Source of the DNA: a virus
DNA length: 47,284 nt
Strand: one strand, 5' to 3'
Virus record (IMG/VR): IMGVR_UViG_3300044957_000305
Location: 1-47,284 of that record
The position numbers and the translations under genes are program-made. The notes beneath the pieces are model-generated. The model worked only from the letters and a program-made list of their open reading frames with translations. It ran no database searches and had not been told where the DNA came from. Shown piece after piece: positions 19,998 to 40,663 of this stretch (the stretch's first letter is position 1; every line of letters starts with the position of its first letter).

Positions 19998-22900
19998 ATG
20001 AGCACAAATATTAGATTTAAACGCAGTGATATACCTGGTAAAATACCATCACTTGATAGCATTGACCTAGGTGAATTAGCAATTAACACCGCTGATGGTA
20101 AACTTTTCACAAAGCAAGAAGTAAAAGCAGGAGCAGGTGTAGCAGCTATTCAAAAAATTATTGAGATTGGAGCTTCTGAAGTACCTAACGTACTCTATGT
20201 TGCCAAGAACGGTGATGATAGTAATAGTGGAAGGACTTTAGGTCAAGCTTTTTTAACTCTAAAGAAAGCCTTAAGCATATCGACTCCTGGGACAACTATT
20301 TTCTTAAAGAGTGGGGAGTATATTGAAGACAATCCTCTACGTGTTCCAGCTCGTGTGTCAATTGTTGGTGACAATTTGCGTAATACCACTGTTCGTCCTA
20401 AGAATGTAACTAAGGATATATTTTGGGTATACAACGGTGCTTATATATTCTGTATGAATTTTAAAGGACATATTGCCCCAAGTGCGGCAGTATGTTTTCC
20501 ACCAGATGGTAGTGCTGGTGAGATAGTAACCAGTCCATATACTCAAGCTGTTACAAGTATTACAACTACTGGTACAGGTATGCGTGTTGATGGCGCAGTG
20601 ACAACAGGTCTACGTTCAATGGTTTGTGATGCGTTTACACAGTACAATCAAGGTGGTATCGGTATTTACATGTTGAACAGAGGTAATACTCAGCTTGTAT
20701 CTATCTTTACAATTTGCTGTGACATTAGCTTTATGTGTGAGAACGGTGGTTTCTGTTCAGTTAACTTATCAAATAGCTCATTTGGTAATTTTGGTTTAGT
20801 AAGTCGTGGCGCAAGTGAACCTCTATATAGAGGTGTTGTTAAGAAAAGTGCTGGTCGCCAGATAACATTTAAGAATTTAGCTAAGCGTCCAAATATTGGT
20901 GATGGCGTACTTTTTGCTGATTATAATCAAGTTACATGTAACAGAGACAATGGTCTAGTAGTGGATGGTCTAGCATTTGATTTATTATATGAAGGTACTA
21001 CTCAAAGTACATTTGCTGGCCTACGTTATTGGAAAAAAGACAATTTAATAACTCCAATAGAGCAGTTAGCCCCAACAGTTGCAGCTATTAAACGTGCTCA
21101 AATAGTTGCTAAGGGTGTAATTGCTGGTACAAACGGTACAATTGCAGGTCAAGTTTTACCTGGTACTTTAAGTATTCAACCTGGCAATTCAACAGCTCAA
21201 CGTCTAGCTGGCGAAGCCTTTGGGATTGTTGCTGCGATTGTGGAAAATGGCCCAACCAGTCCAAGCCTAATTGTAGGCCCAGATTTGGACGCAGCGGAAC
21301 CAGAATATAAAACTTTAAGAGAAACAGTATTAGATAGACAAAGTCAAATTGTTGATCAAACTATTGACTTTTTAACAAAGAATTATCCAAGATTACCTTA
21401 TAGTAAATCAAAATGTATGAGAGATTTATCACTTGTTATCAGTGCCATAGCAGATGATATGATCTTGGGTACTAATTATAGAACAATTAAGGCAGCTCTT
21501 TCTTATCTAAGTTCAACTACAAGCCTTGGTTACACTATTCCAAGTGATCAACGAGATGCAACAAGAGAAGCTTTTAAGTTTGCTAGAGATAAAATTGTAC
21601 CAATTATACAAGAGGATGCGACCTTATTAGCAAGAGTACAAGCTAATTTTACCATTATTGATGAAACATTAGTTCGTGGTGCAAGTTATATTACTGATAT
21701 TACATCTGTTGGCAGTAGTGATGACAACAAATTATCTTATCCAATTTTACAAGATACAGATTTAACAGTTAAAAATCTTGTTAATAATTTACAAGCTAAC
21801 AAAGACTTTATAAAGGCCGAAGTCAACGATTATGTTAAGAAAAACTGGCCAGCAGTTGTAGCTTATGGCTATAATGAGGAGACATGCAAGCGTGATATTG
21901 GCTTTGCACTTGATGCCATATGCTATGACATATTATATGGTGGCAATAGTCAAACATTGGATGCAGCTAAGAGATACTTTAATTATGCTAGCGGATTAAC
22001 AGAACTACGTAGCAGTGAAGAAGTTCCAGCTACGGTTGATGCTTTTGGTCGTGTGCAATTATTAAGTCAGCGTGTGGTAATTTTAGATCCCATTGTGAAA
22101 CAACAAGTGGAAGTATTTCAAGTGTTCGACAATTTAATAGCAACTACTCAAACGCAAGTTAATAGATTAGGTGGATTGTTTAGTATATTCCTAAAACAAC
22201 TTGAAACAGATATTGTTGCTACAAGTGACTTTATTCAACCAAATGGTTCACGTACAGATGATAATAATTTAGAATATGCTTATACATTATTACAAGCCAA
22301 TAAAGCTGCTATTAAGACAGATGTTATCAATTATCTAGCAAGGGCTTTCCCTGCATTTAATTATGATAAAGTTAAATGTGCTCGCGATGTAGGTTATATT
22401 GTTGATAGTGTGTGTTTTGATCTAGTGCACGGTGGTAATCGTCAAAGCGTACAAGCTGGTATTTACTATTATGATTTTAATGAAGAAAGTAATGTTTTAA
22501 AATCAGTATTGCCAAATCAAATAAAACAAACTGTAAATGCTTATAAGTATATGAAAGAGGTATTACGTGATGTTTTAACTTGTAGCCCTGTTCCAAATCC
22601 ATGGCAAGGTGTAGTACCACAGCGTATTGATTTACCAGCAGCTACAGGTAGTGAAGTAGTAGCAGTTAGTAATTTAATTGATATTATTAATGAAATACTT
22701 ATTGAGGGTCCAAATAATACTGAAGATAGTATTCAAAGAATTAAACAACCAATTGCACTAACAGCCAGTGGTGATATTAATAAACAACGTGCTTTTAATC
22801 TATTAATGGCTAATCGTCAGTTTATTCAAGCTGAAATGTTGGCCTTTATAAATCAAAATTGGTTTGTAATCAGTGATGGTGATACAAGTTTTGCTCGTGT

Positions 22901-25900
22901 TAATACTGCTACTGAACTAACCTTAGGAACAACTACAACAGGTTTTCCAACGGTAACATATCAGCCAGCAAGTTTAAAGGCTATTCGTGATGCAGTATTA
23001 GCAGCAAAAGAAGAAATTAAGGCTGAAACAATTAAGTTTATGGCTAATAGCTTTTTTGATAACTTTAGTTTTAATAAACCAAAATGTTATAGAGATGTAG
23101 GTTTAATTCTTGATGCAATTTTAAGTGATATGGTATTTGATAGTAATTATAAAACAATTACTGCTGCTATCAGTTACCTACGTGCATATTCAAGCGAAGT
23201 ATTAGGTGCACAGAAAGTGCAAACTATAGCTGCATTAGAAGCAGCTAAAAAAATAACATTAGCAAGAATTGTAACACCCGCCGCGAAAACAGAAATAAGT
23301 ACAAGATTTGATATCATTCTTGATATTCTTGAAAAGGAAACAGGTGACGGCTACACAGTAACATTCCCAATACCAGCAAAAAATAGTGAAGAAGATATTG
23401 ATCATTATACAGCAGTTAATATTTTGCGTGACAATATAGACTTCATTAAGAAAGAAATTGTAGCTTATATTGATGCAAACTTTACTTTAAATGAATTTGA
23501 TAGAGAAAAATGTAATCGTGATACAGGTCTTATAATTGATGCATTGGGTTACGACCTAATGTTTATTAGTAATTTCCGTAGTATCAGTGCAGGTCGTGCA
23601 TATTTAAGAGCAAATGCTAAAACAGTTCAAGGTAGTCAAAAATTAGCTACACTTGGTGCATTTAGACATCTAAAGAAACTAGCTGTGGCCATCGTTAAAT
23701 CAAATAGCCTTGCAGTTAATAGTATTCAAAGCAATATGGACATAATCCTAGATATCCTTGATAAGGGTGAGAGTGCAGTACCTAAGTTTATGATTCCATT
23801 TCCAGAAAAAGGTCGTAGCATAGGATTTAAACGTGCCCGTGATTTAGTACAAAAAAATAGAGAATTTATTGTAGATGAAGTACTTACCTATGTAAATACT
23901 CCAGGTTTAGAATTACTAAGAGGTACAGTCACTCATCAAATAAATCCTATTACAAATCAATTTTTTACTGATGGTAGTTTTTATCAAGAAGTAGCAACAA
24001 ATGCAAATTTAAATACTTTAGTAGTAGGTGATCTTGTTAGAATTAGTGGGAAGTTATTTGGAACAAGTACAATTGGAGGATACGCAAATCCATCAACATA
24101 TAAAGTATCAGTTGTAACTACGGGCACTGGTCCAGGTGTTCAATTCCAAAAATTTAAACTTGTCAACTTAGACGGAACTGCTCTTGTTACAACACCAGGT
24201 ACAACTGGAAAAACAACAAGTATGAGATTTGAAGTTATCAAAACAGGTACATACGCTGTGCCAACAGGTTTTGATTTTGATAAATGCCGTCGTGACCTAA
24301 ATCTAATTTTAGATGCTGTATTCTATGATACAACTTATGGTGGTACATTAGAAAGTGTAATTGCTGCTAAAAGTTATTTTGTAGGTGCAGTAAGTCAACT
24401 TAATCCTAGCGGTAATGCTGAAGACGAAGTTGCTGCTACTATTAGAGCTTATGAATTACTAAGAACAGTTATTAAAGAAGTTGCAGAAGATAATCTTTGG
24501 GTACCAACAGTAGGCAATACAACATCTCAGGTACGTAGCCCAAATGGTAGTGATGGTAGTGAAGAAGCTGCACGTGAAATGGGTACATGTATTGATTTTA
24601 TTCTAAATGTACTACGTGATGATTCAACAATTGAGGTAAATCTAGATACACAAGCTACACAACCAGATATCAGTTGGGTTGATCCAAAGGCAAGAGCAGC
24701 ATATGATGCATTACAAGCAGTAAAATTTGATACAGAAGAAGCTGTATCAGATTTTGTAGATGAAAATTATGTATTATTTGGTTATGATCGTGCTAAATGT
24801 GCTCGTGATGTTGGTAATGTTATTGAAGCTGTACGTTTTGACATGATGTTTAACAGCAATTTCCGTAGTATTGTAGCTGGTCGCAGCTACTATCGTGCTG
24901 TTGCTAGTACAGTTGTTAAGGATCAAAAACCAGCTACATTAGCCAGTTTTCAATTCTTGAAAGGAAAACTACTTGAAATAGTTAAAGCAGTTGATCCAGA
25001 TAATCCAACAGCAGATGAAAGCGCAAGTATTCAGCGTGTAAGTCGTAGCATGGATATAATATTAGACATTTTAGAAAATGGTTTAACAGCAGAGCCAGCA
25101 TTTATACGTCCAGAGGCAACAGGTACTGGTGTAAGATCACAAGCAGTATTGACATTGCGTAATAATATTGAAAGTAAGCGTGATGATATAGAAGATGATT
25201 TGATCGAATGGATTGATGATCAAATTGAGAATAATCCAGCTTATGAAGATGTTGAATATGATGAAACAGCTTGCCGTAGAGATGTTGAGTATATCTTAGA
25301 TGCACTATACTATGATCTAACCTATGGTGGTAATTTAGAGACAAGAGTGGCTGCTCAAGCATATTATGCTGCCGCAGATGATAACATTCCTTTAGCACTT
25401 GGATCTGATGAAATACAACTAACACTTGCTGCTTACGCTCAACTTAAGGTAATTATTGATGGATATACAGATGCCCCAGTTGTCCCAAGTAATACCCTTA
25501 TTGACCTTATAATTGACTATATTAATACTGGTATTTTAGATGCTCAAGATATTCCTGACATTAGTTGGGTAAATTTAGGTATTAGAACATTTAATACAAA
25601 ACTAAGCGAAGCAAGCGTAGTTTCAAGACTTAAGCAACAAGTAACAGACTTTGTAGACTTAAATTTTGCCTATAATAAAGAGAAATGTGCTCGTGATGTA
25701 GGTTTCTTAATTGATGCTCTATGCTATGACATATTATATGGTGGAAACGTAGAAACTACACAGGCTGCTACTGCATATTTTGATGGTGCAGTAACTCCAA
25801 AAAGTACTATTCCAAAGCAAATTATTCAAACAGTGGCCGCTTATGAGAGACTGAAGGATGTTGTGTCTAACGTAGTACAATTGAAAGATGTACTGCCAAG

Positions 25901-28900
25901 CACAAATAGTTTTACAGCCAAACAGCGTTTGGAAAGTAGTATGGATCTAATTATTGATATAGTTGCGAATGGTGAGAAAAACACTCCACCAAGACCATAT
26001 ATTATGCCTCTACCAACCGTTGTCCCTAATGTTACAAATAATGCCAGCGTGCGAGGTTATCTAAATGCACGTAATAATATCAGTGCTAATAGAGAATTTA
26101 TAAAGGCAGAAACTATTGATCATATTGATAGTCAAGTAAACCCACCAAACTATAATAAAGTTAAGTGTGAGCGTGATATTGATCTACTTCTTGATGCAAT
26201 ATTATATGACTTAACTTATGGTGGTAATGCTGCTACAAGAATAGCCAGTGCTGCTTACTATGATGCAAGTGAAACATTAGGTACAGGTGAAGTTGTTGCA
26301 ACTACAGATGCTTATACAGTAATGGCTAATATCATTGAGTCAGTTGCTTTAGGAGAATTAATTGCTCCAACTAAACAAAATCGTGTTGTACAGGTAGTTG
26401 GAAATAGCGTTGAGGTTGAGACTTCTGGAGCTCATACTACTGCTAAGAATCTTGTACTAGAAATTGTAGTGAGAACAGTTGACGTAAAAAATTCAACAGA
26501 ATTGCAGACGGGATCAAGCTTTACAATTGTAGCTTTAGGTACAAATGTTAATTGGAATGCTGCAGGTGTAGGTGTTACTCCAGCAGTTGGAACAGTATTT
26601 ACAGCCACAGGGTCAACAACTACAGGTAGTGGTGGTAAAGTTATTAGAACTGTACAAGCGGCAGTAGCTCCATCAACACTTTGGGTAGATACAACATTAA
26701 CAGAGATCAATGCGTTTATTAATGCAGCTTGGATTGCAGAAGTTAAGAATAAAGTTAATTTAATCTTTAATCCAACTGCACCAGGTGCAGTCAATCAGTT
26801 TCCGTCTATTAATTATACTGGTGCATTAAGAAGTAGTTGTGAAGAAGATATTGATGATATAATTCTTGCTGTACGTTTTGATATGTTGTTTGGTAGTAAC
26901 TTTAGAAGTCAGGTAGCTGGTCGTGCATATTTCCGTGCAATAACTGGTGCTCAAAATGTATTAGCTACGCAAAAGGATGCAAGTCTTGCTGTATTTCAAT
27001 TAGTTAAAGATCAATTTGCTGATCTTGTAGCAACTGCTGTTCCTGAACAGGTCAAGGCAGGCAAAGCAGGTAATGTTACTGCTGCCGCTGCTGCTGCTGC
27101 CCTAGTTCAAAATATTATTGCTTTTATTGATAATGATTTAGATGATCCAAACGAAGTAGAAGCAAACACAGCATGGGTTGATCCAGATCTTGTTGTATTA
27201 AGTACAACTCTGGAAGATAGTAAGAATGGTGAAAATGGTGTAGCTAATATACCAGTAAGTATTACAACATATATTAATGATCGTTTTCCAGAGTTAGATT
27301 ATAGTAGAGATGATTGTCAAGAAGATATCCGTAGTATCACAGATGCGGTACGTTTTGATATGATGTTTGGTGGTAATTTCCGTACAATAAGTGCTGCTCG
27401 TGCATATTTCCGCGCAGTGGCGGCAAAAGCAGTAGGTGTACAAAAAATTGCTACATTGGAATCATTTAGATTACTCAAAGAAAAATTAACTGATTTTGTC
27501 AAGACTAATGCTACTGCCCTCGACAGAGTATCAGCCAGTATGGATCTATTAATTAGGATAGTTGACAAAGGTCCAAAAGCTATTCCTCAATTTGTTGTTC
27601 CAAGTCCAAGTAATTATAATGGTACATTCTTGCACACATTTGGATATGCTCGTAATCTAATTGAAACAAACCGAGATTTTTTAAAGAATGAAGTTCTAAA
27701 ATGGATTTCAGTAAATAGGCCAACATTAGATTTTAAAGAAGATAAGTGTTTACAAGATTTAGATTTTATTTTAGACGCTATATATTATGATATGACTTAT
27801 GGCGGCAATATGGAAACAATAATTGCTGGTGGTGCATATTACAGAGGTAGTCGTGCAAACGATTTAAGCCTACCACAAAGGCCTACAATTGATGGTGACG
27901 ATGTTGAAGCTACAATTGCCGCTTATGGCTACTTGAAGGAATTAATAGAAAAAGTTGCACAGGGTCAGGATGTAAGTCAATTACAAATTGTTATTAAACA
28001 AGTTGGTGGTGAGCCAGGTAGTATTGGTGGTGCTCAAACTGCTAAGAATCTTGCTTATGTTGTTAGAAACTTAATTAACAACACAGGAACATATGCAGTT
28101 CAAGCTCCAACATTTGTAGTTCCTGATATAAGTTGGGTAGAATTAGAGCTTAAGACTCCAAATGACCTAATTGAGTTATATAAGACCAGTGATGCTGGAA
28201 GTGGTGGTTATTTGGGTAGGAGTAGTGTACAAAGTAAATTGACACAATGGATTACTATACAACAAGAATTAGCTGATCCAATTGCCCCAACAGCGTCTAC
28301 ACTGGTTCAGACTGGTCCACTTGCTGGAACCACAGTACTAAGAGTAGGTAGTTTTACGGATTGGTATAAGGTTAATAATAATAGTCTAGTAGTAGTAAAT
28401 GCTACACAGTTGACAGTTGGCAAGAAATATAAAATATTATCCGCAAATGGCAGTGCATTTACATCAGTAGGTGCTGCTTCAAATAATATTGGCGTGGTAT
28501 TTACTGCTACAGGTGCAAGTGCAGGTGGTACAGGTACTGTACACGAAATGTATACCTATAATGTAGATAAGTGTGAGCGCGATATAGGTCTTGTAATGGA
28601 TGCTGTACGTTATGATATGATGTTTGGTACAAACTTTAGAACTAGAACAGCAGCAATTAGTTACTGGAGACAGCAGGCTAATAATGCCCTATTTTCAGGA
28701 AGTACAGAAAACAGTACATATCCACAGAAGAACGTTTCAAAATTCTTGTTTACTTATATGAAAGAATTATTACAGACTCTTCCAACCACTGTACCTAAAG
28801 CTGGAGCTCCATCTATTCCAGGCATTAGCCCAGGTACAGCACGGACAAGAATTGGTGCATTGATGGATTTGGTTATTGGTATGTTTGATTCATCTGTGGA

Positions 28901-31900
28901 AAACTTTGCACAAGCAACCGAAACTTTACCAGCTAAGCCATACAGCTTACCATTACCTAGTGGTGGTACAAATAATAGTCGTGATCTTGGATTCCGTGCT
29001 GCTCGTGATTTAATTGAAATAAATCGAGATTTTATCAAAGCAGAAGTTCTAAGTTGGATTGATGACCAGAAGCGTGAAAACAGAGATGGTTTTGTAACTC
29101 CATTCAACTTTAATAGAACAGAATGTGCAGAAGACTTAGATCTAATCCTTGATGCAGTATATTATGATATGACCTATGGTGGTAACATGGAAAGTTACAC
29201 AGCAGGTCTTGCATATTATAGTGGTGTTACAAGTGTAAATGCAAGTCTTGGTCAAGATGAGCGTGAAGCTACAATTCGTGCTTACAATTATATGGGACAA
29301 CTATTGTTCAATGTAGCAAGAAGTATTCTTAATAAGAGTTACCAGGTAGCTATAGAGCAGGTTAAAGGTACAAGTGGTAGTGCTGAAACTGCTAAAAAAC
29401 TAGGTGAACTTGTTGACATTGTTATTAATGTAGTCAAAGGTGGAACAAAGCAACTTCCACCAAAAATAGATCCAGACTTCTTATCAGGTGATGAAACTCT
29501 TGCTTATGTTCGTATTGCTGTACAAGAGCAAAAGTTTGAGTTACAGGCTCGTATTGCAGACTACATTGATGCATTTATTCTACAATATAACACAGAAAAA
29601 TGCGCTCGTGACGTAGGATTAATTCTTGATGCTGCTATGTTTGACTTAGTATTAAACAGTAACTTCCAAAGTATTACAGCAGGTAGTGTATACTTACAGA
29701 AGGCTGCTCAAGTTGTAACTAGCACACAGATTGGTCCACAACTACAGGCTATTAAATTTATTCGTGATCAAGTAATCGCAATAAGTCAGAAGCCACCATT
29801 AGTGAAGAATGAACAGGCTATTGGTCGTATAACAAACTTATTTGATGTAATGTTTGATATAATTGATAAAGGTGTTGAGGTAGCTCCAGAGATTGTAAAT
29901 GTTCCACCTCAAGGTGCTGCATTTAATCAATTTGCCATAAATGCTGCTAATAGCATTATTGCTAATAAGGAATTCTTAAAAGAAGAAGCTGTAGCATATA
30001 TTACAGCAAACTATAAGACCTATGATCAAAGTCGTTGCACTAGAGATGTTGGTTTAATAATAGATGCAGTATTATATGATTTATTATTAGATACAAATTA
30101 TAATAGTGTTAAGGCAGGCATTTCTTATCGTCGTGCTACAAGTAGCTTGGTTATAACAGATCAACTGCAAGAAACATTGGGTGCTATTGATTTTGTCAAA
30201 AAGAAGGTCGTTGATCTTATTGATGATGCAAATGCTATAGCTAGTGTTACACGTAGCTTTGAATTAATAAGTAGTATCATTGGTGGAGGCTCAGTTCCAA
30301 CAACAAATATTCCATCTCCAGGTGGTAGTGTATATGCTCTACCACGTCCAAGTGGTATTCTTGTACGTGATAAGGCTTTCCAGGTTGCTGCTGCCAAACT
30401 ACTTGAAAGTGCTGAGCAAACAGAAATTAAAGGTCTTGTAAGAGATTGGATTCTTTCACAAATAAGCGACGCATCAGAAGGTAGTATTTGGGATGGATTT
30501 ACTTATACAGGTGACCGTCAGACTGCGTGCGAAGAAGATATTGGATTCGTTCTTAATGCAGTTGCTTATGATTTAACCTATGGTGGCAATATGGAAACAG
30601 TGTCAGCGGGTCGTGCATACTATGCAGGTGCTGCTAACGCAAGTTTACAAGAGGCAGCCGAAATTCCAACAACACTTGCTACATATACCTATTTGTCTGA
30701 ATTAGTTAAGGCTAGATTAGAACAAGCAGGCGTAACAGCACAGGTACAAACTGAAGCTGAAAATTTAGTTCTTCAAGTTAGAAACCTTGTTGATAGTGCA
30801 GCAAATAGTGTTGCAAGAGTGCGTTTACCAGATCAAAGTTGGGCAGATCCATTAACACAAGAAATCAGTGCATTCCTAGTTGATGATAAGCCAAGACTAC
30901 AGGATGTAATTATTGATTACGTAAACAATATTGCTACATATACAGATAACGAGCTACAAACCCCAGCTAATTATGATCAGGATAAATGCCGTAGAGATGT
31001 AGGTCTTGTATTAGATGCAGTTAGATATGATTTGATGTTTGGTACAAATTTCCGTACAATTAGTGCAGGACGCAGTTATGCTCGTAGTTTTGCTGAAGTT
31101 ATTACTACAAGTCAACAGGCAGCCAATAGGAATGCATTCGTTGAGTTGAAAGAAAGAGTATTAGGCAAGAAATTAACTGGTGTAAAACGTGGTGCTAATA
31201 ATGGTACCTTCACATGTGATGACCCATTCACAATTGATACAACTCCATTATTTGTTGGTCAATCGGTACGTGTAAGTGGCGTATATGGTGTTGGTAATAC
31301 AGTAACATTGGGAAATTACGCTAATTTAGCAAGTCAGCCAAAGACTTATTTTATCGTAGATACAAACGATAGAACAACATTTACTCTAAGTGAAACAGTT
31401 GATGGTCTACCAATTGCAACAACTGGTGCTGAAGATGCTGTTCCATTAGGATTAACATTTGAAATAAGACCAAGTGTTGAACCTTTAGATACAGTAATTA
31501 CACAAGGTCTATTAGATGTAGTAACTTTAACAGCTAATAATCAAAATACGCCTCTAGTTGTTGGTCGTGAATATAAGATAAAGAGCACTGGCACACAAAC
31601 TGTAACAGCTGGTGGATTTATTATTGGTGGCAGATATAAAATTACTGCTGTTAACAGCACAAACTTTACAAACGTGGGTGCTGAGGAAAATACTATTGGC
31701 GTGGAATTTACTGCTACCGGTGCAGGTACTGGTACTGGTACAGCTACATTTATAACAGATTATAGCTTATACGGTGCTGCTGATAATACAGTTGGTACAG
31801 TGTTTAGAGCAACACAGACCACTATTGCTACAACTAAACTAACAGCAGCCGCAAGTGACCAGGCTACAGAGTTAACCGTTGATAGCACTGCTCAATTCCC

Positions 31901-34900
31901 AGCAACAGGTAGCTTTATAATTCAAGGTGAAGTTATTAGTTATAGTGGTAAGGAGGCGACCAAGTTTACTGGTTGTGTAAGGTCACTGACTAATGCTGTA
32001 GATCTACCTGTAGACGCGGAAATAAAAAGTTTAACAGCAGGTACTGGTCAAGTTGAGACAATTAGTATTCGTGAAAGTGCTGAAAGACTATTTAACTTGT
32101 TTAATCTCATTCTTGAGACGCAGGGTAATGTTCCTGTTAAACAAGGTGGTAGCGGTACATTCTATAATATTACTCCTCCAAGTGCAGGAACAGGTAATGC
32201 ATTTACAGCAGAGATCAAAACAGCTAGAGATAATATCAATAAAGCAAGACAAAGTCTTGAAGATGACTTAATTGATTGGATCACTGCAGAGGTAGGTAAT
32301 GAAAATGGTAATTTTGGTCCACCCTTTAGTTTTGTTGAAGCCTCATGCAGAAATGATATTAAATTAATCTTAGATGCTGTTACTTATGATTTGACGTTTG
32401 GTGGAAATCAGGAAACTATTGTCGCTGGTAAGGCATATTATGATGGTACAGCTTTACAGGATGATGAAAAACTTGCTACAATTGATTCTTATAAAAAATT
32501 AAGAGAGCTAATCACAACTGTAGCCGGAGCAGATGGTGGTAATACTGGTATTGTACAAACATTGATCGATGAATTAATCACATATATTGATCAAAATAGT
32601 GATGATCCAATTGAAATTGAAGCTGATACAAGTTGGGTTGATAGTGAATTGTATGTGTTTAGTGACAAGTTAAAGGCAGAAGCCAATAATGTTGCAGTGA
32701 ACACAACAACATATATTAATGCTAATTATCCAGGTCTTGATTATAATGTAGCTACTTGCCAACGTGATGTCAAATTGATTATTGAAGCTGTCCGTTGGGA
32801 TTTAATGTTTGATAGTAATTTCCGTACTGTAACTGCTGCTCGTAGTTACTATAGAGCGCAAGCATCAACAGTGATAGGTGCTCAGAAAGAAGCTACAATT
32901 GATGCATTTAGGGTAGTTAAAGTAACATTGGATGAGTTCGTTAAGAGTGATAATGTTGCTCAAACTCGTGTAGCAGCATTAATGGATATAGTAGTCAATA
33001 CTTTAGTTGGAGGTGTTGGAGTATTACCAGAATTAAGCTTACCATATGGTGCTACCCCAAATGCTACAGATATTGGATTTTTAAATGCTCGTGATCGAAT
33101 AGAAGAAAATAGACATTTTATTCTTGAAGATATGAGATCATATTTAGAAAACTCAGTAGTTGATGGTGGCCTAGGATTAGGCGATGGGACATCCTTTGAT
33201 GGCAACTTTACTACAGACGAGTGTTTACGTGATGTTAGTTTAATATTAGATGCTGTACGTTATGACCTAACATACGGTGGTAATTTGGAAAGTGTAGTTG
33301 CTGGAAGAGCATATTATGCAGGTACAGTGTTACGTGATACACCAACAAATCAAGCTCATATTGAAGCTACAGAAGCTGCATATACACGTTTAGCAACTGT
33401 TTTAGAATCAGTGGCTACGAATAGTAGTAGGTCAACTCTCCCTGGTTACTCAGGCCCATCTCAAGTTAGATCAAATACAGCAGGTAGCGTTGAAGCTGCT
33501 GCACAAGCTAAGGCTCTTGTAGATACAGTCAAGAGCTATGTTGGTACAAATCTTGATGATGATGTAGCTGAAATAAGACCAAGCACAAGTTGGGTAGATA
33601 ATAATCTTGCACTAATTGCTAGTACAATGCTTGATCGTAAAGCAGAAAGCTTGCCATTACAAGTTACTGATTATATTGACGCTCAATTTCCAGCATTAGT
33701 TTATAATAAAGATACATGTAAGCGTGATATTCAATATGTAGTAGATGCTGTACGTTTTGATATGATGTTTAATACAAATTTCCGTAGTTGGACAGCAGGT
33801 AAAGCCTACTATAGAAATATGACTAGTGCTGCTGTAGTTACAACTACTCAGAAAGTCGCTACATTGGCATCATTTAGATATCTAAAAACTCTTCTTATAG
33901 AGATTGCTGGTAATAATGTTACAGCCGTTAATAGAGTAAAAGGTGCAATGAATGTTGTAATTGATACTCTTGAACAAGGTGAAACAACACGTAATGCTAA
34001 TAATCCTAAGATTGCAGCAGCAGTTGAAGTTATTACAGCTAATAAAGACGTATTGTTAGCCAATATGGAGACATGGTTAGAAGGGCAAGGAACGAGTTTC
34101 ACGGGTTATAACCTTGGTACATGTTTACGTGATCTTGGATACTTAATTGATGCAATATTATATGACTTAACCTATGGTGGTAATATGGAATCATGGGTGG
34201 CTGGTAAAAGTTATTATGGTGGCGCTGTATTAGGAAGTAACGATGATGAGCATGTGGCGTTGACCAAGGCGGCCTTTACAGAATTAGGAAATAAAATTAA
34301 GGATCTAAGTGGAGTTGATTTGTTTGCAGTTGGTCCACGTGTCGATACTTTAATTGCCAATGTCAATGCTCTAATTGATGATGAATCAGTTGCAGAGGTT
34401 TATGCTGATGCAAGTTGGACAGAAGTTGGTCTACAGGAAGTTGCCGTAACAGTAAGAGCACAAACTAACACAATTAAGACACAGGTAACAAATTACATTA
34501 ATACAAACTTCCCAACATTAGTTTATAATCAAGATACTTGCCAACGTGACGTAGGCTTAGTCATTGATGCAGTACGTTGGGATATGTTGTTTAATAGTAA
34601 TTTCCGTAGTATTACTGCGGGACGTAGTTATTGGAGAAGCGTAGCCAATGAAGGTCTGTCACAAGTCGACACTCTTGGTCAAACAGCTAATCAAAAGATT
34701 GCAAGTATCGCAGCATTTACATATCTAAAAGATCTGTTATTGGCTGTTGCCGCAGGTAACAAGCTTGCCCAAGAACGTATTACAAATAATATAGACATCG
34801 TTCTACAAATTCTTGAGACTGGCCTCAGTGACCAAGAAAACCCAACGATTACATACCCAACACCTGTACGTTCAGAAAATGCTAGAAAAGCTAAAGATAT

Positions 34901-37900
34901 ATTATTAGCCAACAAAGCTTTCATTCAAGATGAAATTATAAATTACATTAATAGTAACTTTAATGCTGTATTCTATGATGAAGAAAAATGTGCTCGTGAT
35001 GTGGAATTAATTTCTACAGCAATCGCTTATGATATGGTACAGGATGGTAACTTTAATACAATTAGAGCAGCACAAGGTTATCTCCGTGCTAATGCAAGTA
35101 ATGTATTAACACCACAGCAGAAACATATTACAATATTATCAATGAAATATTTGAAGAATCTACTGACAAATTATGTTGGTGGAAATCCTATTGCTAAGAC
35201 AAGAGTGAAAGAGCTGATTGAAATTGTAATTAATACAATAAACAAGGCGGCTTTAAGTGTAACAGAAATAGACTATGGTACAGCACCAGTTCCAGAGAAG
35301 TGGGATGCTACAAATATTGCAGGTGATTATACTAATGATAGTGTAATTAAGACAATTATTGATGATGTAATATCTTATGTAGAAACACCTGCTGATGGTT
35401 ACACAGTGCCAAATGAATATAACCAAATTAAGTGTAAGCGTGACCTACAGTTTATTTTAGAAGGTCTACGTTATGACTTAACACATGGTGGTAATTGGGC
35501 AAGTGTAGTAAGCGCCCGCAGTTACTATGTAGGTACAGAAAATCAACTTGGTAATAATAGTGGTGAAGTAGCAGCTACACTACGTGCATTTGAATACTTG
35601 AAGACACAGCCAAATCTATTAGCAAGTATTGAGGGTGAGGTAGACGTTGGTACAGTAAATGTTCCTAATATTGTAACAGCAGAAGAGAGAGTAGCGGACC
35701 TAATTGAAATTATTAGGACAGTAATTCAAGATAAAAATGCTATACCAGCAATTGACTATCCAGAGTTATTAGGTAGTGATAATGAACTTGAAGCCGCAAG
35801 AAATGTATTGATCAGTAATGTTGAAAATGCAAAAGCAAAAGTAATTCGTTATACAAATGATCGTGCATATTTTGTTTATGATCCAATTAAGTGTGAGCGT
35901 GATCTAGAATTAATCTTAGATGCTATACACACTGATATTGTTACAAATAGTAATTTCTTAAGTATTCAAGCAGGTCGTTCTTACTTACGCGCAAGTGCAG
36001 AGGATGCCCTTAAAGCAGCGCAGAAGTGGGCAATACTTTCTGGTCTAACACATGCCAAGAGTGTATTAAGTGCTCGAGTTAGCACAAATGCTGAAATGGT
36101 ATCAAGAATCCGTAATAGACTAAGCAATATTATTGATATTATTAATGATGAATCTGACAGCAATGTAGCACTAATTTTGACAAATAGTACAACAACTTAT
36201 TCAGCAGTTAGTGATCGTCAAAATAGTGCTGCTGCTATACAATCAGCAAAGGCTACACTAATTGACGATGTTATAACTAGCGTTGCGGATGTCTTAACAG
36301 ACCCAAATGATGAAAATGCTTGCAGACGTGACCTCAGTTACATCATAGATGCTTTAAGTCACGATGTGTTATACGGTGGTAATTGGGGAGTTACAGTAGC
36401 AGCCAAAGCATATTGGGAAAATGGGCAACTAGCCCTTGGTCCTATCGATAATGAAAGAGTAGCTACACTTGAAGCTCTAGATACCTTAAAAAACTTGATC
36501 AATGCTCTACCTAGTGTAAATTCAGATGCTGAGATTACAGCCCTAATCAGCAGAATTAAAGCAGTTCTTGATAATGCAGATACTGATGGATTTGATGGCG
36601 AGACAGATCTAGAAGAAGCTAATGCTCTAACAATCACAGCCCCAACGCTAACTGGTGCCACACAAGCACATATTGATGCCAATACAACTCTAGTAGCAGC
36701 TAAGGATGCTAGCACATACGATATATTAGATTATATCAATAGCAGAACATATTTAGAATATGATAGTGATAAGTGTCAGCGTGATATAGGAATAATACTT
36801 GATGCACTACGGTTTGATCAAGTAAAAAATAGTAATTTCAAGAGTATTAAAGCAGGTCAGGCATACTTGAGAAGTTATAGTAAAACTGTTATTGAGGAGC
36901 AAAAGCAGGCTACAATTGGGGCTCTGTATTTTGTTAAGAAACAGGTTTCAGAAAACTTATTACAAGCTAATGTTCCTACTGCGGATATTAATTATGTTCG
37001 TAGCTTAATGAATATTATTATTGATATTCTAGATCGCGGTGAAACTGCCATACCAGAAGCAGTTATACCAGCTGAAGGTACAGGATCAACTGCTACAATT
37101 CTTAATAACAAAGACTTCATTAAAGCTGAAGTACGTGCTTATATTGAAATTAACTATCCAGAGTTAGATTATAATAAGATAACATGTGAAAGAGATGTTG
37201 CTTATATCTTAGATGCACTACGTTATGATTTAGCAGTTGGTGGAAATAGTGAAACTATAGAAGCTGGACTAAGTTATTGGGAAGGCAATGCCTTAACATT
37301 AGGTACTGGTACAACAGTGACAAGTACTCTTGTAACAGCTGGTAACTTTGTAATTGGTCAAAAGTATCAAATAGCGACTCTAAGTAGCGGTGGTATCCCA
37401 GTTGATACAGACTTTACGCTGATTGGTGCAAGTAGTAACACGGTTGGAGTAGTGTTTACTGCTACAGGTAATGGTGAAAGCAATGGTAATGGTCAGGCAT
37501 TTTTAGTAGTTGGAGTTGAAGAACAAAAATTAGCAACAGTGGGTGCATATGCATTCTTAGCTGATCTTGTTAAGTCTCTCTTAGACAATAATTATTCTGT
37601 ACAACAGCAAAGCGTAGTTAAGAAAGGTGTTTATGTTGGTACCCCAGATAGTCTATCATTAACAGCTAAGACATTAATAACTAATATTAAGAATATAGTT
37701 AATAGTGAAAATTTTGCTGCTGCTCAAGCACTTGCTAATAATACTATTGGCATAGTCTTACCTGGAATAGGTACAAGTTTAGTTAATACTACAATTGTTG
37801 CTGCTACAACCAATTTACCAGGTGAAACAACAACTGAGATTAACAAGGCTTTCATCAATTCAAGTACAGGATTATTTGTTGCTGGTAGTGCTGATAATGT

Positions 37901-39086
37901 TCAGTTCTTCGTATATAATCAAGATAAGTGCTCACGTGATGTTGGTTTTGTGATAGATGCTCTAGCATTTGATTTATTCTTCGGTGGTAATAAGGAAACT
38001 AGAGAAGCAGCACTACAGTATGCATACAAGGGCGGTCTAGTGATTCCTTTAGCAACTAAGGTACCAACTGTTGGTGGCTTTACAAGACTTAAGAATATTA
38101 TGGTTCCTATAGTTACAGGACAGGCTATTACACGTTCAATCGGTTTCGATGAAGATTTAGACCAAGAGACAGAAGGACCATCAAATACTGAGTTTGGTAA
38201 TGACGCACGAAATAAGGTACAGATTGTAATTGATGTACTAAATGGTAAAGGTGCTCCAGTGCTAGTTGAGCCAGATGCAATAGCTAACAAGACTGCTGAT
38301 CTGGAGTATTTGGCAATTCGTGAACTTGTTAAAGATAGTGTTTCAACTATTGCTAGCCAGACAATCAAATTCATAAATGAAACTTATGCAGGATTTGGTT
38401 ACGAACAAGATACTTGTAAGCGTGATATAGGTTTAACATTAGATGCTGTAGCTTATGACTTGATCTATGGTGGTAATAGTAGAACTAAGTTTGCTGCTGA
38501 ACAGTATTATAGTGGTGGTCGATTCCAGATTCCAGCAGATAGTAAGAGTGCTACAGTGGCTTGCTTTGTTTACTTGGATGCTCTAATTAGAAAAGTAATT
38601 AAGAATGAACCTATTGTAACATTCCAAAATTATGTAGATCAAAATAAGAGTAATCAACAAGCTACAGATAGTGAAGTGTTAAATGTTGCAAGTCTAATGG
38701 ATGCATATACTGATATTTTATCAAATGGTTATATCAGTGTACTACAACTTGATGCAACATTTAATGGTAGTGTAGATGATAATACGTTTGCTACGTTCCA
38801 CCAAGTTAGTACAATTACTACAACTGGTCACACATTGGAGTGGGTTGGAACTGGTATTGATGTAGATAGTGCTTTACCATACAACGGCGGTGTGCCAAAA
38901 CCAGAGAATCAATTGGTTAGTGAAAGAGGAGGATTTATCAACTTCACTAGTACAGATGAAAAAGGTGACTTTAGAATTGGTCCAGACTTAACAATTAAGC
39001 GTGACTCAGGTAGTATTGTAGGTAGAGCATTTAATAAGAGCTTGTTAGGAGTAATTACACCATACATCCTAGCACTCCAAGGTTAA
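19998..39086 (+). CDS. Giant tail-fibre-like protein, 6362 residues, beta-helix plus about 34 C-RD repeats
   Basis: A single uninterrupted frame of 19,089 bases. The N-terminus (IRFKRSDIPGKIPSLDSIDL, then GELAINTADGKLFTK) is a standard phage-fibre head domain. Residues about 65-300 form a pectate-lyase-like beta-helix with VLYVAKNGDDSNSGRT, RVSIVGDNLRNTTVRP and YNQGGIGIYMLNRGNTQLVS, a module conserved in marine T4-like fibres. From about residue 314 to 6170 there are 34 copies of a mostly helical unit with consensus (K/T)C-x-RD-(V/I)G-x-x-(L/I)-DA-x-x-(Y/F)D, then either YGGN-x-(E)T or (F)NSNFRS, and an AT-x-(A/S)(F/Y)-x-x-LK helix. Inserted small beta domains break the array at several points. 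The C-terminus (HTLEWVGTGIDVDSALPYNG, FTSTDEKGDFRIGPD, FNKSLLGVITPYILALQG) matches the conserved end of shorter marine fibre proteins, so the gene is complete. No enzyme site seen. Confidence 0.88.
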   Translation: MSTNIRFKRSDIPGKIPSLDSIDLGELAINTADGKLFTKQEVKAGAGVAAIQKIIEIGASEVPNVLYVAKNGDDSNSGRTLGQAFLTLKKALSISTPGTTIFLKSGEYIEDNPLRVPARVSIVGDNLRNTTVRPKNVTKDIFWVYNGAYIFCMNFKGHIAPSAAVCFPPDGSAGEIVTSPYTQAVTSITTTGTGMRVDGAVTTGLRSMVCDAFTQYNQGGIGIYMLNRGNTQLVSIFTICCDISFMCENGGFCSVNLSNSSFGNFGLVSRGASEPLYRGVVKKSAGRQITFKNLAKRPNIGDGVLFADYNQVTCNRDNGLVVDGLAFDLLYEGTTQSTFAGLRYWKKDNLITPIEQLAPTVAAIKRAQIVAKGVIAGTNGTIAGQVLPGTLSIQPGNSTAQRLAGEAFGIVAAIVENGPTSPSLIVGPDLDAAEPEYKTLRETVLDRQSQIVDQTIDFLTKNYPRLPYSKSKCMRDLSLVISAIADDMILGTNYRTIKAALSYLSSTTSLGYTIPSDQRDATREAFKFARDKIVPIIQEDATLLARVQANFTIIDETLVRGASYITDITSVGSSDDNKLSYPILQDTDLTVKNLVNNLQANKDFIKAEVNDYVKKNWPAVVAYGYNEETCKRDIGFALDAICYDILYGGNSQTLDAAKRYFNYASGLTELRSSEEVPATVDAFGRVQLLSQRVVILDPIVKQQVEVFQVFDNLIATTQTQVNRLGGLFSIFLKQLETDIVATSDFIQPNGSRTDDNNLEYAYTLLQANKAAIKTDVINYLARAFPAFNYDKVKCARDVGYIVDSVCFDLVHGGNRQSVQAGIYYYDFNEESNVLKSVLPNQIKQTVNAYKYMKEVLRDVLTCSPVPNPWQGVVPQRIDLPAATGSEVVAVSNLIDIINEILIEGPNNTEDSIQRIKQPIALTASGDINKQRAFNLLMANRQFIQAEMLAFINQNWFVISDGDTSFARVNTATELTLGTTTTGFPTVTYQPASLKAIRDAVLAAKEEIKAETIKFMANSFFDNFSFNKPKCYRDVGLILDAILSDMVFDSNYKTITAAISYLRAYSSEVLGAQKVQTIAALEAAKKITLARIVTPAAKTEISTRFDIILDILEKETGDGYTVTFPIPAKNSEEDIDHYTAVNILRDNIDFIKKEIVAYIDANFTLNEFDREKCNRDTGLIIDALGYDLMFISNFRSISAGRAYLRANAKTVQGSQKLATLGAFRHLKKLAVAIVKSNSLAVNSIQSNMDIILDILDKGESAVPKFMIPFPEKGRSIGFKRARDLVQKNREFIVDEVLTYVNTPGLELLRGTVTHQINPITNQFFTDGSFYQEVATNANLNTLVVGDLVRISGKLFGTSTIGGYANPSTYKVSVVTTGTGPGVQFQKFKLVNLDGTALVTTPGTTGKTTSMRFEVIKTGTYAVPTGFDFDKCRRDLNLILDAVFYDTTYGGTLESVIAAKSYFVGAVSQLNPSGNAEDEVAATIRAYELLRTVIKEVAEDNLWVPTVGNTTSQVRSPNGSDGSEEAAREMGTCIDFILNVLRDDSTIEVNLDTQATQPDISWVDPKARAAYDALQAVKFDTEEAVSDFVDENYVLFGYDRAKCARDVGNVIEAVRFDMMFNSNFRSIVAGRSYYRAVASTVVKDQKPATLASFQFLKGKLLEIVKAVDPDNPTADESASIQRVSRSMDIILDILENGLTAEPAFIRPEATGTGVRSQAVLTLRNNIESKRDDIEDDLIEWIDDQIENNPAYEDVEYDETACRRDVEYILDALYYDLTYGGNLETRVAAQAYYAAADDNIPLALGSDEIQLTLAAYAQLKVIIDGYTDAPVVPSNTLIDLIIDYINTGILDAQDIPDISWVNLGIRTFNTKLSEASVVSRLKQQVTDFVDLNFAYNKEKCARDVGFLIDALCYDILYGGNVETTQAATAYFDGAVTPKSTIPKQIIQTVAAYERLKDVVSNVVQLKDVLPSTNSFTAKQRLESSMDLIIDIVANGEKNTPPRPYIMPLPTVVPNVTNNASVRGYLNARNNISANREFIKAETIDHIDSQVNPPNYNKVKCERDIDLLLDAILYDLTYGGNAATRIASAAYYDASETLGTGEVVATTDAYTVMANIIESVALGELIAPTKQNRVVQVVGNSVEVETSGAHTTAKNLVLEIVVRTVDVKNSTELQTGSSFTIVALGTNVNWNAAGVGVTPAVGTVFTATGSTTTGSGGKVIRTVQAAVAPSTLWVDTTLTEINAFINAAWIAEVKNKVNLIFNPTAPGAVNQFPSINYTGALRSSCEEDIDDIILAVRFDMLFGSNFRSQVAGRAYFRAITGAQNVLATQKDASLAVFQLVKDQFADLVATAVPEQVKAGKAGNVTAAAAAAALVQNIIAFIDNDLDDPNEVEANTAWVDPDLVVLSTTLEDSKNGENGVANIPVSITTYINDRFPELDYSRDDCQEDIRSITDAVRFDMMFGGNFRTISAARAYFRAVAAKAVGVQKIATLESFRLLKEKLTDFVKTNATALDRVSASMDLLIRIVDKGPKAIPQFVVPSPSNYNGTFLHTFGYARNLIETNRDFLKNEVLKWISVNRPTLDFKEDKCLQDLDFILDAIYYDMTYGGNMETIIAGGAYYRGSRANDLSLPQRPTIDGDDVEATIAAYGYLKELIEKVAQGQDVSQLQIVIKQVGGEPGSIGGAQTAKNLAYVVRNLINNTGTYAVQAPTFVVPDISWVELELKTPNDLIELYKTSDAGSGGYLGRSSVQSKLTQWITIQQELADPIAPTASTLVQTGPLAGTTVLRVGSFTDWYKVNNNSLVVVNATQLTVGKKYKILSANGSAFTSVGAASNNIGVVFTATGASAGGTGTVHEMYTYNVDKCERDIGLVMDAVRYDMMFGTNFRTRTAAISYWRQQANNALFSGSTENSTYPQKNVSKFLFTYMKELLQTLPTTVPKAGAPSIPGISPGTARTRIGALMDLVIGMFDSSVENFAQATETLPAKPYSLPLPSGGTNNSRDLGFRAARDLIEINRDFIKAEVLSWIDDQKRENRDGFVTPFNFNRTECAEDLDLILDAVYYDMTYGGNMESYTAGLAYYSGVTSVNASLGQDEREATIRAYNYMGQLLFNVARSILNKSYQVAIEQVKGTSGSAETAKKLGELVDIVINVVKGGTKQLPPKIDPDFLSGDETLAYVRIAVQEQKFELQARIADYIDAFILQYNTEKCARDVGLILDAAMFDLVLNSNFQSITAGSVYLQKAAQVVTSTQIGPQLQAIKFIRDQVIAISQKPPLVKNEQAIGRITNLFDVMFDIIDKGVEVAPEIVNVPPQGAAFNQFAINAANSIIANKEFLKEEAVAYITANYKTYDQSRCTRDVGLIIDAVLYDLLLDTNYNSVKAGISYRRATSSLVITDQLQETLGAIDFVKKKVVDLIDDANAIASVTRSFELISSIIGGGSVPTTNIPSPGGSVYALPRPSGILVRDKAFQVAAAKLLESAEQTEIKGLVRDWILSQISDASEGSIWDGFTYTGDRQTACEEDIGFVLNAVAYDLTYGGNMETVSAGRAYYAGAANASLQEAAEIPTTLATYTYLSELVKARLEQAGVTAQVQTEAENLVLQVRNLVDSAANSVARVRLPDQSWADPLTQEISAFLVDDKPRLQDVIIDYVNNIATYTDNELQTPANYDQDKCRRDVGLVLDAVRYDLMFGTNFRTISAGRSYARSFAEVITTSQQAANRNAFVELKERVLGKKLTGVKRGANNGTFTCDDPFTIDTTPLFVGQSVRVSGVYGVGNTVTLGNYANLASQPKTYFIVDTNDRTTFTLSETVDGLPIATTGAEDAVPLGLTFEIRPSVEPLDTVITQGLLDVVTLTANNQNTPLVVGREYKIKSTGTQTVTAGGFIIGGRYKITAVNSTNFTNVGAEENTIGVEFTATGAGTGTGTATFITDYSLYGAADNTVGTVFRATQTTIATTKLTAAASDQATELTVDSTAQFPATGSFIIQGEVISYSGKEATKFTGCVRSLTNAVDLPVDAEIKSLTAGTGQVETISIRESAERLFNLFNLILETQGNVPVKQGGSGTFYNITPPSAGTGNAFTAEIKTARDNINKARQSLEDDLIDWITAEVGNENGNFGPPFSFVEASCRNDIKLILDAVTYDLTFGGNQETIVAGKAYYDGTALQDDEKLATIDSYKKLRELITTVAGADGGNTGIVQTLIDELITYIDQNSDDPIEIEADTSWVDSELYVFSDKLKAEANNVAVNTTTYINANYPGLDYNVATCQRDVKLIIEAVRWDLMFDSNFRTVTAARSYYRAQASTVIGAQKEATIDAFRVVKVTLDEFVKSDNVAQTRVAALMDIVVNTLVGGVGVLPELSLPYGATPNATDIGFLNARDRIEENRHFILEDMRSYLENSVVDGGLGLGDGTSFDGNFTTDECLRDVSLILDAVRYDLTYGGNLESVVAGRAYYAGTVLRDTPTNQAHIEATEAAYTRLATVLESVATNSSRSTLPGYSGPSQVRSNTAGSVEAAAQAKALVDTVKSYVGTNLDDDVAEIRPSTSWVDNNLALIASTMLDRKAESLPLQVTDYIDAQFPALVYNKDTCKRDIQYVVDAVRFDMMFNTNFRSWTAGKAYYRNMTSAAVVTTTQKVATLASFRYLKTLLIEIAGNNVTAVNRVKGAMNVVIDTLEQGETTRNANNPKIAAAVEVITANKDVLLANMETWLEGQGTSFTGYNLGTCLRDLGYLIDAILYDLTYGGNMESWVAGKSYYGGAVLGSNDDEHVALTKAAFTELGNKIKDLSGVDLFAVGPRVDTLIANVNALIDDESVAEVYADASWTEVGLQEVAVTVRAQTNTIKTQVTNYINTNFPTLVYNQDTCQRDVGLVIDAVRWDMLFNSNFRSITAGRSYWRSVANEGLSQVDTLGQTANQKIASIAAFTYLKDLLLAVAAGNKLAQERITNNIDIVLQILETGLSDQENPTITYPTPVRSENARKAKDILLANKAFIQDEIINYINSNFNAVFYDEEKCARDVELISTAIAYDMVQDGNFNTIRAAQGYLRANASNVLTPQQKHITILSMKYLKNLLTNYVGGNPIAKTRVKELIEIVINTINKAALSVTEIDYGTAPVPEKWDATNIAGDYTNDSVIKTIIDDVISYVETPADGYTVPNEYNQIKCKRDLQFILEGLRYDLTHGGNWASVVSARSYYVGTENQLGNNSGEVAATLRAFEYLKTQPNLLASIEGEVDVGTVNVPNIVTAEERVADLIEIIRTVIQDKNAIPAIDYPELLGSDNELEAARNVLISNVENAKAKVIRYTNDRAYFVYDPIKCERDLELILDAIHTDIVTNSNFLSIQAGRSYLRASAEDALKAAQKWAILSGLTHAKSVLSARVSTNAEMVSRIRNRLSNIIDIINDESDSNVALILTNSTTTYSAVSDRQNSAAAIQSAKATLIDDVITSVADVLTDPNDENACRRDLSYIIDALSHDVLYGGNWGVTVAAKAYWENGQLALGPIDNERVATLEALDTLKNLINALPSVNSDAEITALISRIKAVLDNADTDGFDGETDLEEANALTITAPTLTGATQAHIDANTTLVAAKDASTYDILDYINSRTYLEYDSDKCQRDIGIILDALRFDQVKNSNFKSIKAGQAYLRSYSKTVIEEQKQATIGALYFVKKQVSENLLQANVPTADINYVRSLMNIIIDILDRGETAIPEAVIPAEGTGSTATILNNKDFIKAEVRAYIEINYPELDYNKITCERDVAYILDALRYDLAVGGNSETIEAGLSYWEGNALTLGTGTTVTSTLVTAGNFVIGQKYQIATLSSGGIPVDTDFTLIGASSNTVGVVFTATGNGESNGNGQAFLVVGVEEQKLATVGAYAFLADLVKSLLDNNYSVQQQSVVKKGVYVGTPDSLSLTAKTLITNIKNIVNSENFAAAQALANNTIGIVLPGIGTSLVNTTIVAATTNLPGETTTEINKAFINSSTGLFVAGSADNVQFFVYNQDKCSRDVGFVIDALAFDLFFGGNKETREAALQYAYKGGLVIPLATKVPTVGGFTRLKNIMVPIVTGQAITRSIGFDEDLDQETEGPSNTEFGNDARNKVQIVIDVLNGKGAPVLVEPDAIANKTADLEYLAIRELVKDSVSTIASQTIKFINETYAGFGYEQDTCKRDIGLTLDAVAYDLIYGGNSRTKFAAEQYYSGGRFQIPADSKSATVACFVYLDALIRKVIKNEPIVTFQNYVDQNKSNQQATDSEVLNVASLMDAYTDILSNGYISVLQLDATFNGSVDDNTFATFHQVSTITTTGHTLEWVGTGIDVDSALPYNGGVPKPENQLVSERGGFINFTSTDEKGDFRIGPDLTIKRDSGSIVGRAFNKSLLGVITPYILALQG
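26509..26640 (+). other. Inserted FTATG domain, copy 1 in the giant gene
   Basis: Encodes SSFTIVALGTNVNWNAAG and VGTVFTATGSTTTGSGG. It is a short beta domain common in aquatic phage fibres, interrupting the spacer between C-RD repeats. Confidence 0.75.
28396..28545 (+). other. Inserted FTATG domain, copy 2 in the giant gene
   Basis: Encodes VNATQLTVGKKYKILSANGS and GVVFTATGASAGGTGTV, directly before a C-RD repeat of the FGTNFRT type. Confidence 0.78.
31540..31815 (+). other. Inserted FTATG domains, copies 3 and 3b in the giant gene
   Basis: Encodes a partial first copy (LVVGREYKIKSTGTQ) nested around a full one (GGFIIGGRYKITAVNSTNF, GVEFTATGAGTGTGTA), followed by a remnant tail (NTVGTVFRATQ). 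The arrangement looks as if one domain was inserted inside another. Confidence 0.72.
37336..37515 (+). other. Inserted FTATG domain, copy 4 in the giant gene
   Basis: Encodes TAGNFVIGQKYQIATLSSGG and GASSNTVGVVFTATGNGE. It lengthens the spacing between two C-RD units from the usual 400-490 bases to about 745. Confidence 0.78.
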
Positions 39087-39154: not shown

Positions 39155-39493
39155 ATGGCAACAGTACCCTTAAACGCATTTAAAACCGTTACAGCAAGCG
39201 TAACAGCAAGCCCAACTAATATTTACACAACACCAGCTGGTGTAACAGGTATTATACTTGGGACACAAGTAACAAACATCACAGATAATACAAGCGCTAA
39301 TTTTACAGCTTGGCATGTTCGCGGTGTTGTAAGTAGTGAATTAGTCAATGAATTTGAAATTCCTAATAGTGATGCTATTAGCTTTGTAGCAGGAAAGTTG
39401 GTTTTAGAATCAGGTGATAGCCTTCGTTGTCAAGGAAGCAGCAACGGTGCCTTAAAAGTTACACTAAGTATTTTAGAATCAGCTAACGATTGA
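39155..39493 (+). CDS. 112-residue beta-sandwich-like virion protein, copy 2
   Basis: Same length and strand plan as the protein at 14105, though diverged: TVTASVTASPTNIYTTPAGV, then a strand GIILGTQVTNI, a central (F)TAWHVRGVVSSELV, LVLESGDSLRCQGSS and LKVTLSILESA. I recognise this small fold as a frequent companion of fibre genes in aquatic phages (N-terminal 'TPAGVTGIILG', C-terminal 'GDSL'). AAAGGA precedes the ATG by 7 bases. Its position at the start of the second fibre set mirrors copy 1 at the start of the first set, supporting cassette duplication. Function unknown, presumably a fibre-cap or decoration subunit. Confidence 0.78.
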   Translation: MATVPLNAFKTVTASVTASPTNIYTTPAGVTGIILGTQVTNITDNTSANFTAWHVRGVVSSELVNEFEIPNSDAISFVAGKLVLESGDSLRCQGSSNGALKVTLSILESAND

Positions 39494-39529
39494 TAATCAA
39501 GTAATTGATATAGCATAAGGATAGATAAA

Positions 39530-40525: not shown

Positions 40526-40534
40526 CCAAAATTG

Positions 40535-40542
40535 GCTAAATA
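40535..40542 (+). promoter_or_regulatory. Weak late promoter-like octamer GCTAAATA with adjacent hairpin
   Basis: Two mismatches to TATAAATA. It is followed by AGTCT-CTAA-AGACT (40542-40555). The strong promoter at 12486 is followed by the similar AGTC-AAAAA-GACT, so the two leaders begin alike. Tentative. Confidence 0.25.
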
Positions 40543-40600
40543 GTCTCTAAAGACTTTATAAGTTAAAATGAGATGCGATCAATTATCTATTAATCTGAGC

Positions 40601-40632: not shown

Positions 40633-40663
40633 ATGTATTACAGAAAGGAGGCATAGGTTTTAA

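Follow-up and report, generated by a model that had tools for sequence, protein, structure and literature searches.

An array of 34 predicted phycobiliprotein-fold domains in a giant, probably virion-borne protein of a T4-like phage

The body of the giant fibre-like protein encoded in the window (the whole stretch of DNA analysed, 47,284 nucleotides) consists of 34 repeat units, each of which is almost certainly a domain of the phycobiliprotein (bilin-globin) fold. This identity of the repeat unit, the main point absent from the initial annotation, shifts the view of the gene from that of a 'big fibre' to that of a phycobiliprotein-like domain forming the body of a virion appendage; fold and appendage, taken jointly, are judged likely. 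The units keep the Cys that holds the pigment in phycobiliproteins and large relatives of the phage carry pigment-making genes, so the virus particles may be coloured.

The giant frame and its ends

The gene is a single open frame with an ATG start and zero internal stops. Portal, prohead protease and capsid all mark the phage of the window as T4-like. The principal features outside the repeat array are as follows.

19998-39086, + strand: giant fibre gene, 6362 aa (open frame; homologous giants; dN/dS)
19998-20117, + strand: N-terminal 'KRS-PGK-PS-GE-N-DGKLF' domain, also present on long tail fibre proteins and probably the part that attaches to the virion (residues 3-42 match PHROGs families of long tail fibre distal subunits; first 200 aa 88-94% identical in relatives)
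20169-20852, + strand: beta-helix-type head, DUF1565-like, also on many shorter marine and freshwater fibres (PF07602 above cut-off, residues 71-127; 88 IMG/VR relatives)
38700-39086, + strand: conserved C-terminal cap, last residues ITPYILALQG (86-96% identity across eight relatives)
4495-6234, + strand: T4-like portal protein, gp20 (PF07230, E=2e-106)
10482-11717, + strand: T4-like major capsid protein (phrog_138, E=4e-98)

Both ends of the giant also occur on much shorter proteins in IMG/VR, as the initial annotation had proposed: the first 283 residues matched 88 candidate stretches, with 89-95% matches at eleven loci that include contigs of 400, 183 and 160 kb, and the last 128 residues matched 13. 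The fibre N-terminal domain, the C-terminal cap and the T4-like virion gene setting, which together served as the test for a T4-like cyanophage fibre, are all found for the giant. From these features we infer that the protein is probably a virion appendage, either a tail fibre or a baseplate-attached adhesin. Its size, earlier described as exceptional for a phage, is paralleled by annotated virion structural proteins, P-SSM4 gp7 with 7312 aa (57144-79082) and S-H38 gp097 with 5512 aa.

An array of 34 divergent units

The motif C-x-x-D, followed after ten residues by a further Asp, occurs 34 times in the giant and takes the strict form C-x-R-D in 28 of these occurrences, so that the previous estimate of about 34 internal units accounting for the extra length proved exact. 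All 34 aligned units share Cys(0), Asp(+3), Asp(+14) and Tyr(+30) without exception. With an HMM of the units, 34 domains score strongly (47-127 bits) and three further fragments weakly. The giant contains 49 cysteines, 34 being the motif residues.

20793-38693, + strand: array of 34 C-x-x-D units with predicted phycobiliprotein (bilin-globin) fold (motif search, unit HMM, profile searches)
Motif Cys of units 1-17 (aa): 314, 473, 630, 794, 1030, 1172, 1430, 1601, 1759, 1897, 2057, 2281, 2440, 2584, 2859, 3043, 3202
Motif Cys of units 18-34 (aa): 3347, 3511, 3664, 4117, 4254, 4409, 4574, 4709, 4848, 4998, 5146, 5299, 5442, 5593, 5730, 5978, 6140
26460-26642, + strand: inserted small 'FTATG' module between units (motif at aa 2201)
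31575-31874, + strand: longest of the inserts, separating unit 20 from unit 21 at a spacing of 453 aa (two FTATG-like motifs, at aa 3904 and aa 3936)

Inside the frame TRF detects one short array only (31709-31747), and the repeat is thus visible in the protein and not in the DNA. The nearest sibling of a unit within the giant has a median best identity of 40%. The units fall into two sub-types, the alternation of which, as an alpha/beta-like pairing, is weak only: 23 of the 33 transitions in the window (P about 0.03), with P values of 0.01-0.11 among non-independent relatives. A small G-x-x-Y-x-I ... F-T-A-T-G module, possibly a surface beta domain, recurs as an inter-unit insert at 26460-26642, 28365-28547, 31575-31874 and 37320-37502, the further copies of its FTATG motif lying near aa 2835, 3904, 3936 and 5820.

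Sequence profiles relate the units to phycobiliproteins

The Pfam family PF00502 (Phycobilisome) scores above its curated cut-off in residues 1-1401 of the giant (26.4 versus 22.2 bits); the fibre encoded by cyanophage DSL-LC03 also exceeds it, at 27.6 bits.

22899-23342, + strand: unit 5 region, PF00502 match, best stretch aa 1027-1109 (the score above cut-off is that of the whole 1401-aa piece)

Taken singly, only two of the 34 units match PF00502 at E<=1, the best at 0.078 and below the family cut-off. As single units mostly fall below significance, profiles were used, and in searches against all PDB chains phycobiliproteins dominated the matches. They made up 30 of the 31 matches at E<=10 for A1, the profile of the window's own 34 units (best E 0.0026), 31 of 33 for A3, built from 100 units of the window's phage and related phages, and 54 of 56 for A4, whose cyanophage and more distant units were picked for the Cys motif, a choice that favours this profile (best E 1.1e-6). 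Profile searches, a check of the kind suggested in the initial annotation, point to this family. In the PDB alignments the K-C-x-R-D of the units falls on the K-C-x-R-D of phycocyanin alpha, the bilin-holding motif, whose Cys is conventionally numbered Cys84.

When A3 was compared, profile against profile, with a set of 211 phycobiliprotein sequences, the score was 44.4 (P 3.8e-7) with 102-128 columns aligned, while the controls reached at most 16.9 over 30 column-permuted profiles and 8.1 for the reversed family. The similarity is strongest over helices B-E. Matches to A3 at E<=1 were obtained in 33 of 36 cyanobacterial genomes, and the top match lay at the phycocyanin locus in every cyanobacterial genome compared, those loci having served to fetch the genomes. 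The Cys is retained in 601 of 609 counted units, a set that includes overlapping loci. A short-peptide search of GTDB genomes returned no close cellular homologues of the units, and no part of the A1 alignment was conserved enough to serve for scanning the collection.

Predicted structure of the units

34395-34817, + strand: unit 26, single domain modelled (AlphaFold2 pLDDT 92.7, pTM 0.87; Foldseek matches are phycobiliproteins)
33495-34832, + strand: three consecutive units (B-A-B) modelled jointly (pLDDT 85, pTM 0.75)

The model of unit 26 comprises six helices and displays no counterpart of the X-Y N-terminal helices through which phycobiliproteins assemble into alpha-beta trimers and hexamers. 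Nearly all of the 50 Foldseek matches listed against the PDB are phycobiliproteins, at probability 1.00 and with TM scores mostly of 0.5-0.7; E values range from 0.0047 to 0.08, never below 0.001, and identity from 10 to 18%. In the viral library the matches are tail proteins of uncultured phages and cyanophages, including S-PM2 and S-CAM1. A joint model of consecutive units had also been proposed in the initial annotation; run with three, it matched smURFP (TM 0.76 on target), phycocyanins, the bilin domain of ApcE and the globin of DosC, every one of them with an E value above 0.09. From profiles and models together, the units are predicted with high confidence to adopt the phycobiliprotein (bilin-globin) fold and to be homologous to the family.

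The array is old and conserved in related phages

Six IMG/VR relatives fetched for comparison encode the same giant, with lengths of 6682, 6653, 6653, 6792, 6204 and 6904 aa; five contain 34 units and one contains 36. As two of the relatives, G002 and G003, have the same sequence, these amount to five independent comparisons rather than six. The ends of the window's giant are 78-94% identical to those of its relatives and the middle mostly 40-65%. A stretch at aa 3201-3400 (window 29598-30197, around units 17-18) is 79-90% conserved among the giants, its flanks less so. In each of G001, G002, G004 and G006, the best match of a unit is the one bearing its own number in 31-33 cases out of 34, and in the 36-unit relative the best-match register is shifted by two from about unit 21 on. 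Codon comparison of the giants yields dN/dS of 0.24-0.27 with dS near 1; the giant is under purifying selection, and the earlier reading of one intact, selected frame holds over 6362 codons without a stop. Shared unit number, largely the same order and dN/dS indicate that the array is old, ordered and selected. The picture of a simple expansion of one repeat is not supported: the units are ancient, stand at about 40% identity to their nearest siblings, form two sub-types and have largely kept their order in four relatives.

Three alternative accounts of the array were weighed. A metagenomic contig with repeats is the usual setting for assembly errors, and the giant's length could on that ground be ascribed to an assembly artefact or to recent tandem duplication. 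Relatives from other assemblies, however, share the unit number and order, the units are too divergent for collapse or expansion during assembly, and TRF finds next to nothing within the frame; the same array in six relatives is neither an artefact nor a recent expansion, and this account can be ruled out for practical purposes. Convergence would make the unit an unrelated helical bundle, one helix of which carries C-x-R-D and resembles phycobiliprotein helix E by chance, in keeping with the low overall identity and the concentration of similarity over helices B-E. It is very improbable given the span of the profile-profile alignment, the far lower controls and the return of the phycobiliprotein family by structure prediction. 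The presence of the DosC globin among the Foldseek matches raises a third account, in which the units would be globins of the usual heme-binding or sensor kind, but the giant has only 20 His in 6362 aa, none of them conserved, and any His at all occurs in just 12 of the 34 unit windows. Lacking a conserved proximal His, the units are hardly credible as heme globins, and that assignment was rejected.

Relation to known systems

The phage units resemble phycobiliproteins (PF00502; phycocyanin alpha, the ApcE bilin domain, smURFP) in their predicted globin-like helical fold, in a C-x-R-D in register with Cys84 and in their PDB and Pfam profile matches. In contrast to phycobiliproteins, they are strung as 34 beads along a single chain of a viral fibre, are without X-Y helices, share only 10-18% identity with the family, have a putative pigment and occur in phages that may infect hosts devoid of phycobilisomes. 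The bilin biosynthesis-associated globins (BBAGs) belong to the same bilin-globin superfamily; many phycobiliproteins, and BBAG-1/3 too, carry their bilin Cys within a CXRD motif, and those BBAGs need no lyase to bind bilin (Rockwell et al., PMC10151467). The units share with them the CXRD of BBAG-1/3 and an occurrence in genomes that also encode a heme oxygenase and a bilin reductase, whereas the phage domains are arranged in tandem in a fibre and not in an enzyme gene cluster. The distant cyanobacterial globins that were fetched mostly lack CXRD and scored 29, versus 44 for phycobiliproteins.

The same unit is present in cyanophage fibre or structural proteins encoded in a T4-like tail/baseplate cluster (S-PM2p091, S-MbCM7_083, S-H38 gp097, P-SSM4 gp7; PHROGs 5342, 4527 and 701), and in S-PM2 and S-MbCM7 the unit-bearing homologues lie a few genes upstream of gp13-gp16. 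Unlike the giant, the cyanophage fibre proteins examined have two to five units each; five Cys-bearing units occur in S-PM2p091 and five in the B23 fibre. These proteins are annotated merely as fibre or structural, the fold being unnamed in the annotations and in searchable papers. A tblastn search with the units of S-PM2, reportedly one of the cyanomyoviruses tested for light-dependent adsorption, identified 349 phage records in INPHARED, named as Synechococcus phage, cyanophage, Prochlorococcus phage and one marine virus, with no Pelagibacter phage among them. A phycobiliprotein-like appendage domain would thus be common to hundreds of cyanophages and to a set of lake jumbo phages. The units are not a feature of all T4-like relatives: two records, of 199 kb (G009) and 111 kb (G010), have neither units nor reductase. 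No description of a phycobiliprotein fold in a virion was found in the open-access literature, most subscription journals lying outside the scope of the search.

Bilin genes in the jumbo relatives

Adjacent genes for a heme oxygenase and a ferredoxin-dependent bilin reductase are present in three jumbo relatives of 370-400 kb (G001, G007 and G013); the window, at 47 kb, does not include bilin genes. The genes lie in a conserved block of hsp20-like, ClpS-like, heme oxygenase and bilin reductase genes (L117 7688-11650 in G001, L118 6882-10896 in G013, L119 6943-8972 in G007); a dnaK-like gene stands beside the block in G001 and G013, and ClpS is confirmed by Pfam in G013. In G001 the giant occupies 103-123 kb, far from the enzyme genes at 340 kb; they share a genome but lack the clustering typical of BBAGs. 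All ten reductase-bearing contigs of at least 128 kb also carry units; the ten were sampled with the G001 reductase and comprise related phages and fragments, and the co-occurrence is for that reason suggestive and not a test. No CpeT lyase-like gene was detected in the jumbo relatives.

A cyanobacterial host for these jumbo phages was rejected: psbA was found in none of G001, G007 and G013, G001 has a Gram-negative porin gene, and G013 contains pmoC (249671-250387, E=3e-122), which implies a methanotroph as host of G013. As pmoC occurs in only one of 17 records, a methanotroph host is not supported for all relatives. The G013 record also holds curlin repeat and CsgG genes (L118 1196-4500).

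The coupling of units to reductase is not strict. The isolated Pelagibacter phage Mosig encodes both enzymes beside its fibre genes, yet none of the units, and P-SSM4 carries pcyA together with units that lack the Cys. Cyanophages bearing psbA have units and no reductase. In Mosig (L124 1-11526) the stretch that separates the fibre genes from the neck genes contains the heme oxygenase, the bilin reductase, a ferrochelatase and several oxygenases of the 2OG-Fe(II) type.

Pigmented or bare beads

The giant would form a very large appendage on the virion of a T4-like freshwater (lake) jumbo phage, anchored by its N-terminal fibre-type domain, with the beta-helix next, a body of 34 phycobiliprotein-fold beads with occasional small inserts and the conserved cap at the end. 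A linear tetrapyrrole may sit at the motif Cys of at least some beads, supplied in jumbo phages by the phage heme oxygenase and ferredoxin-dependent bilin reductase and in cyanophages by the host. Such a putative bilin, covalently or non-covalently bound, is proposed tentatively, at somewhat less than even odds. Close to an even chance is the account in which the fold was co-opted as a bare building block of the fibre, C-x-R-D being kept for helix packing and the phage bilin genes serving host phycobilisomes, iron release or signalling. In phages with the reductase, some units retain the Arg-Asp with W, T or S replacing the Cys, so the motif may also be structural; Mosig and P-SSM4, which uncouple the enzymes from Cys-bearing units, and the many unit-bearing cyanophages without reductase are likewise consistent with bare beads. 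Packing alone is nevertheless hard to credit for a near-invariant single Cys at the bilin site, kept across dozens of divergent units of a Cys-poor protein, and units and bilin enzymes are both retained in the large jumbo relatives that could be assessed, one of which has pmoC. Bare and pigmented beads are, on balance, about equally likely.

Bilin on the beads would bear on the open question of how bilins made by phages, including those of non-phototrophs, are used. The same pair of phage auxiliary genes, heme oxygenase and PcyA/PcyX, has been described in a study of phage Shemin-pathway genes, where the purpose of heme oxygenase and PcyA in phages of non-phototrophs was termed 'enigmatic' and a bilin-binding globin was mentioned as one possibility (PMC11480375). 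That study names no phage bilin acceptor, a role for which the units of the fibre are candidates. Should bilin be present on the beads, they would constitute a class of pigmented virus particle for which no report was found, and a possible basis of light-dependent adsorption, which has been reported for several marine cyanomyoviruses (review, PMC2984593). A virion with dozens of bilins per fibre, made by the phage even where the host, for instance a methanotroph, has no phycobilisomes, and with a coloured appendage that might perceive light or react to it, for example by gating adsorption, is possible and on the doubtful side; a light-related role of the beads is speculative and improbable.

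Other fibre-like genes

In G001 two further large unit-bearing frames encode 4122 aa (L304, 359.5-366 kb) and 2381 aa (L305, 251-254.5 kb), the units of the latter being without Cys. In the window the gene families phrog_1276, phrog_8578 and phrog_9417 recur on either side of the giant (14105-19934 and 39155-44169), each set being succeeded by a fibre gene, first the giant and then a collagen-like gene, an arrangement that looks like a duplicated fibre cassette. The second of these fibre genes, at 44436-47282, combines collagen-type G-x-Q repeats with a CBM_5_12 carbohydrate-binding module and runs off the window end.
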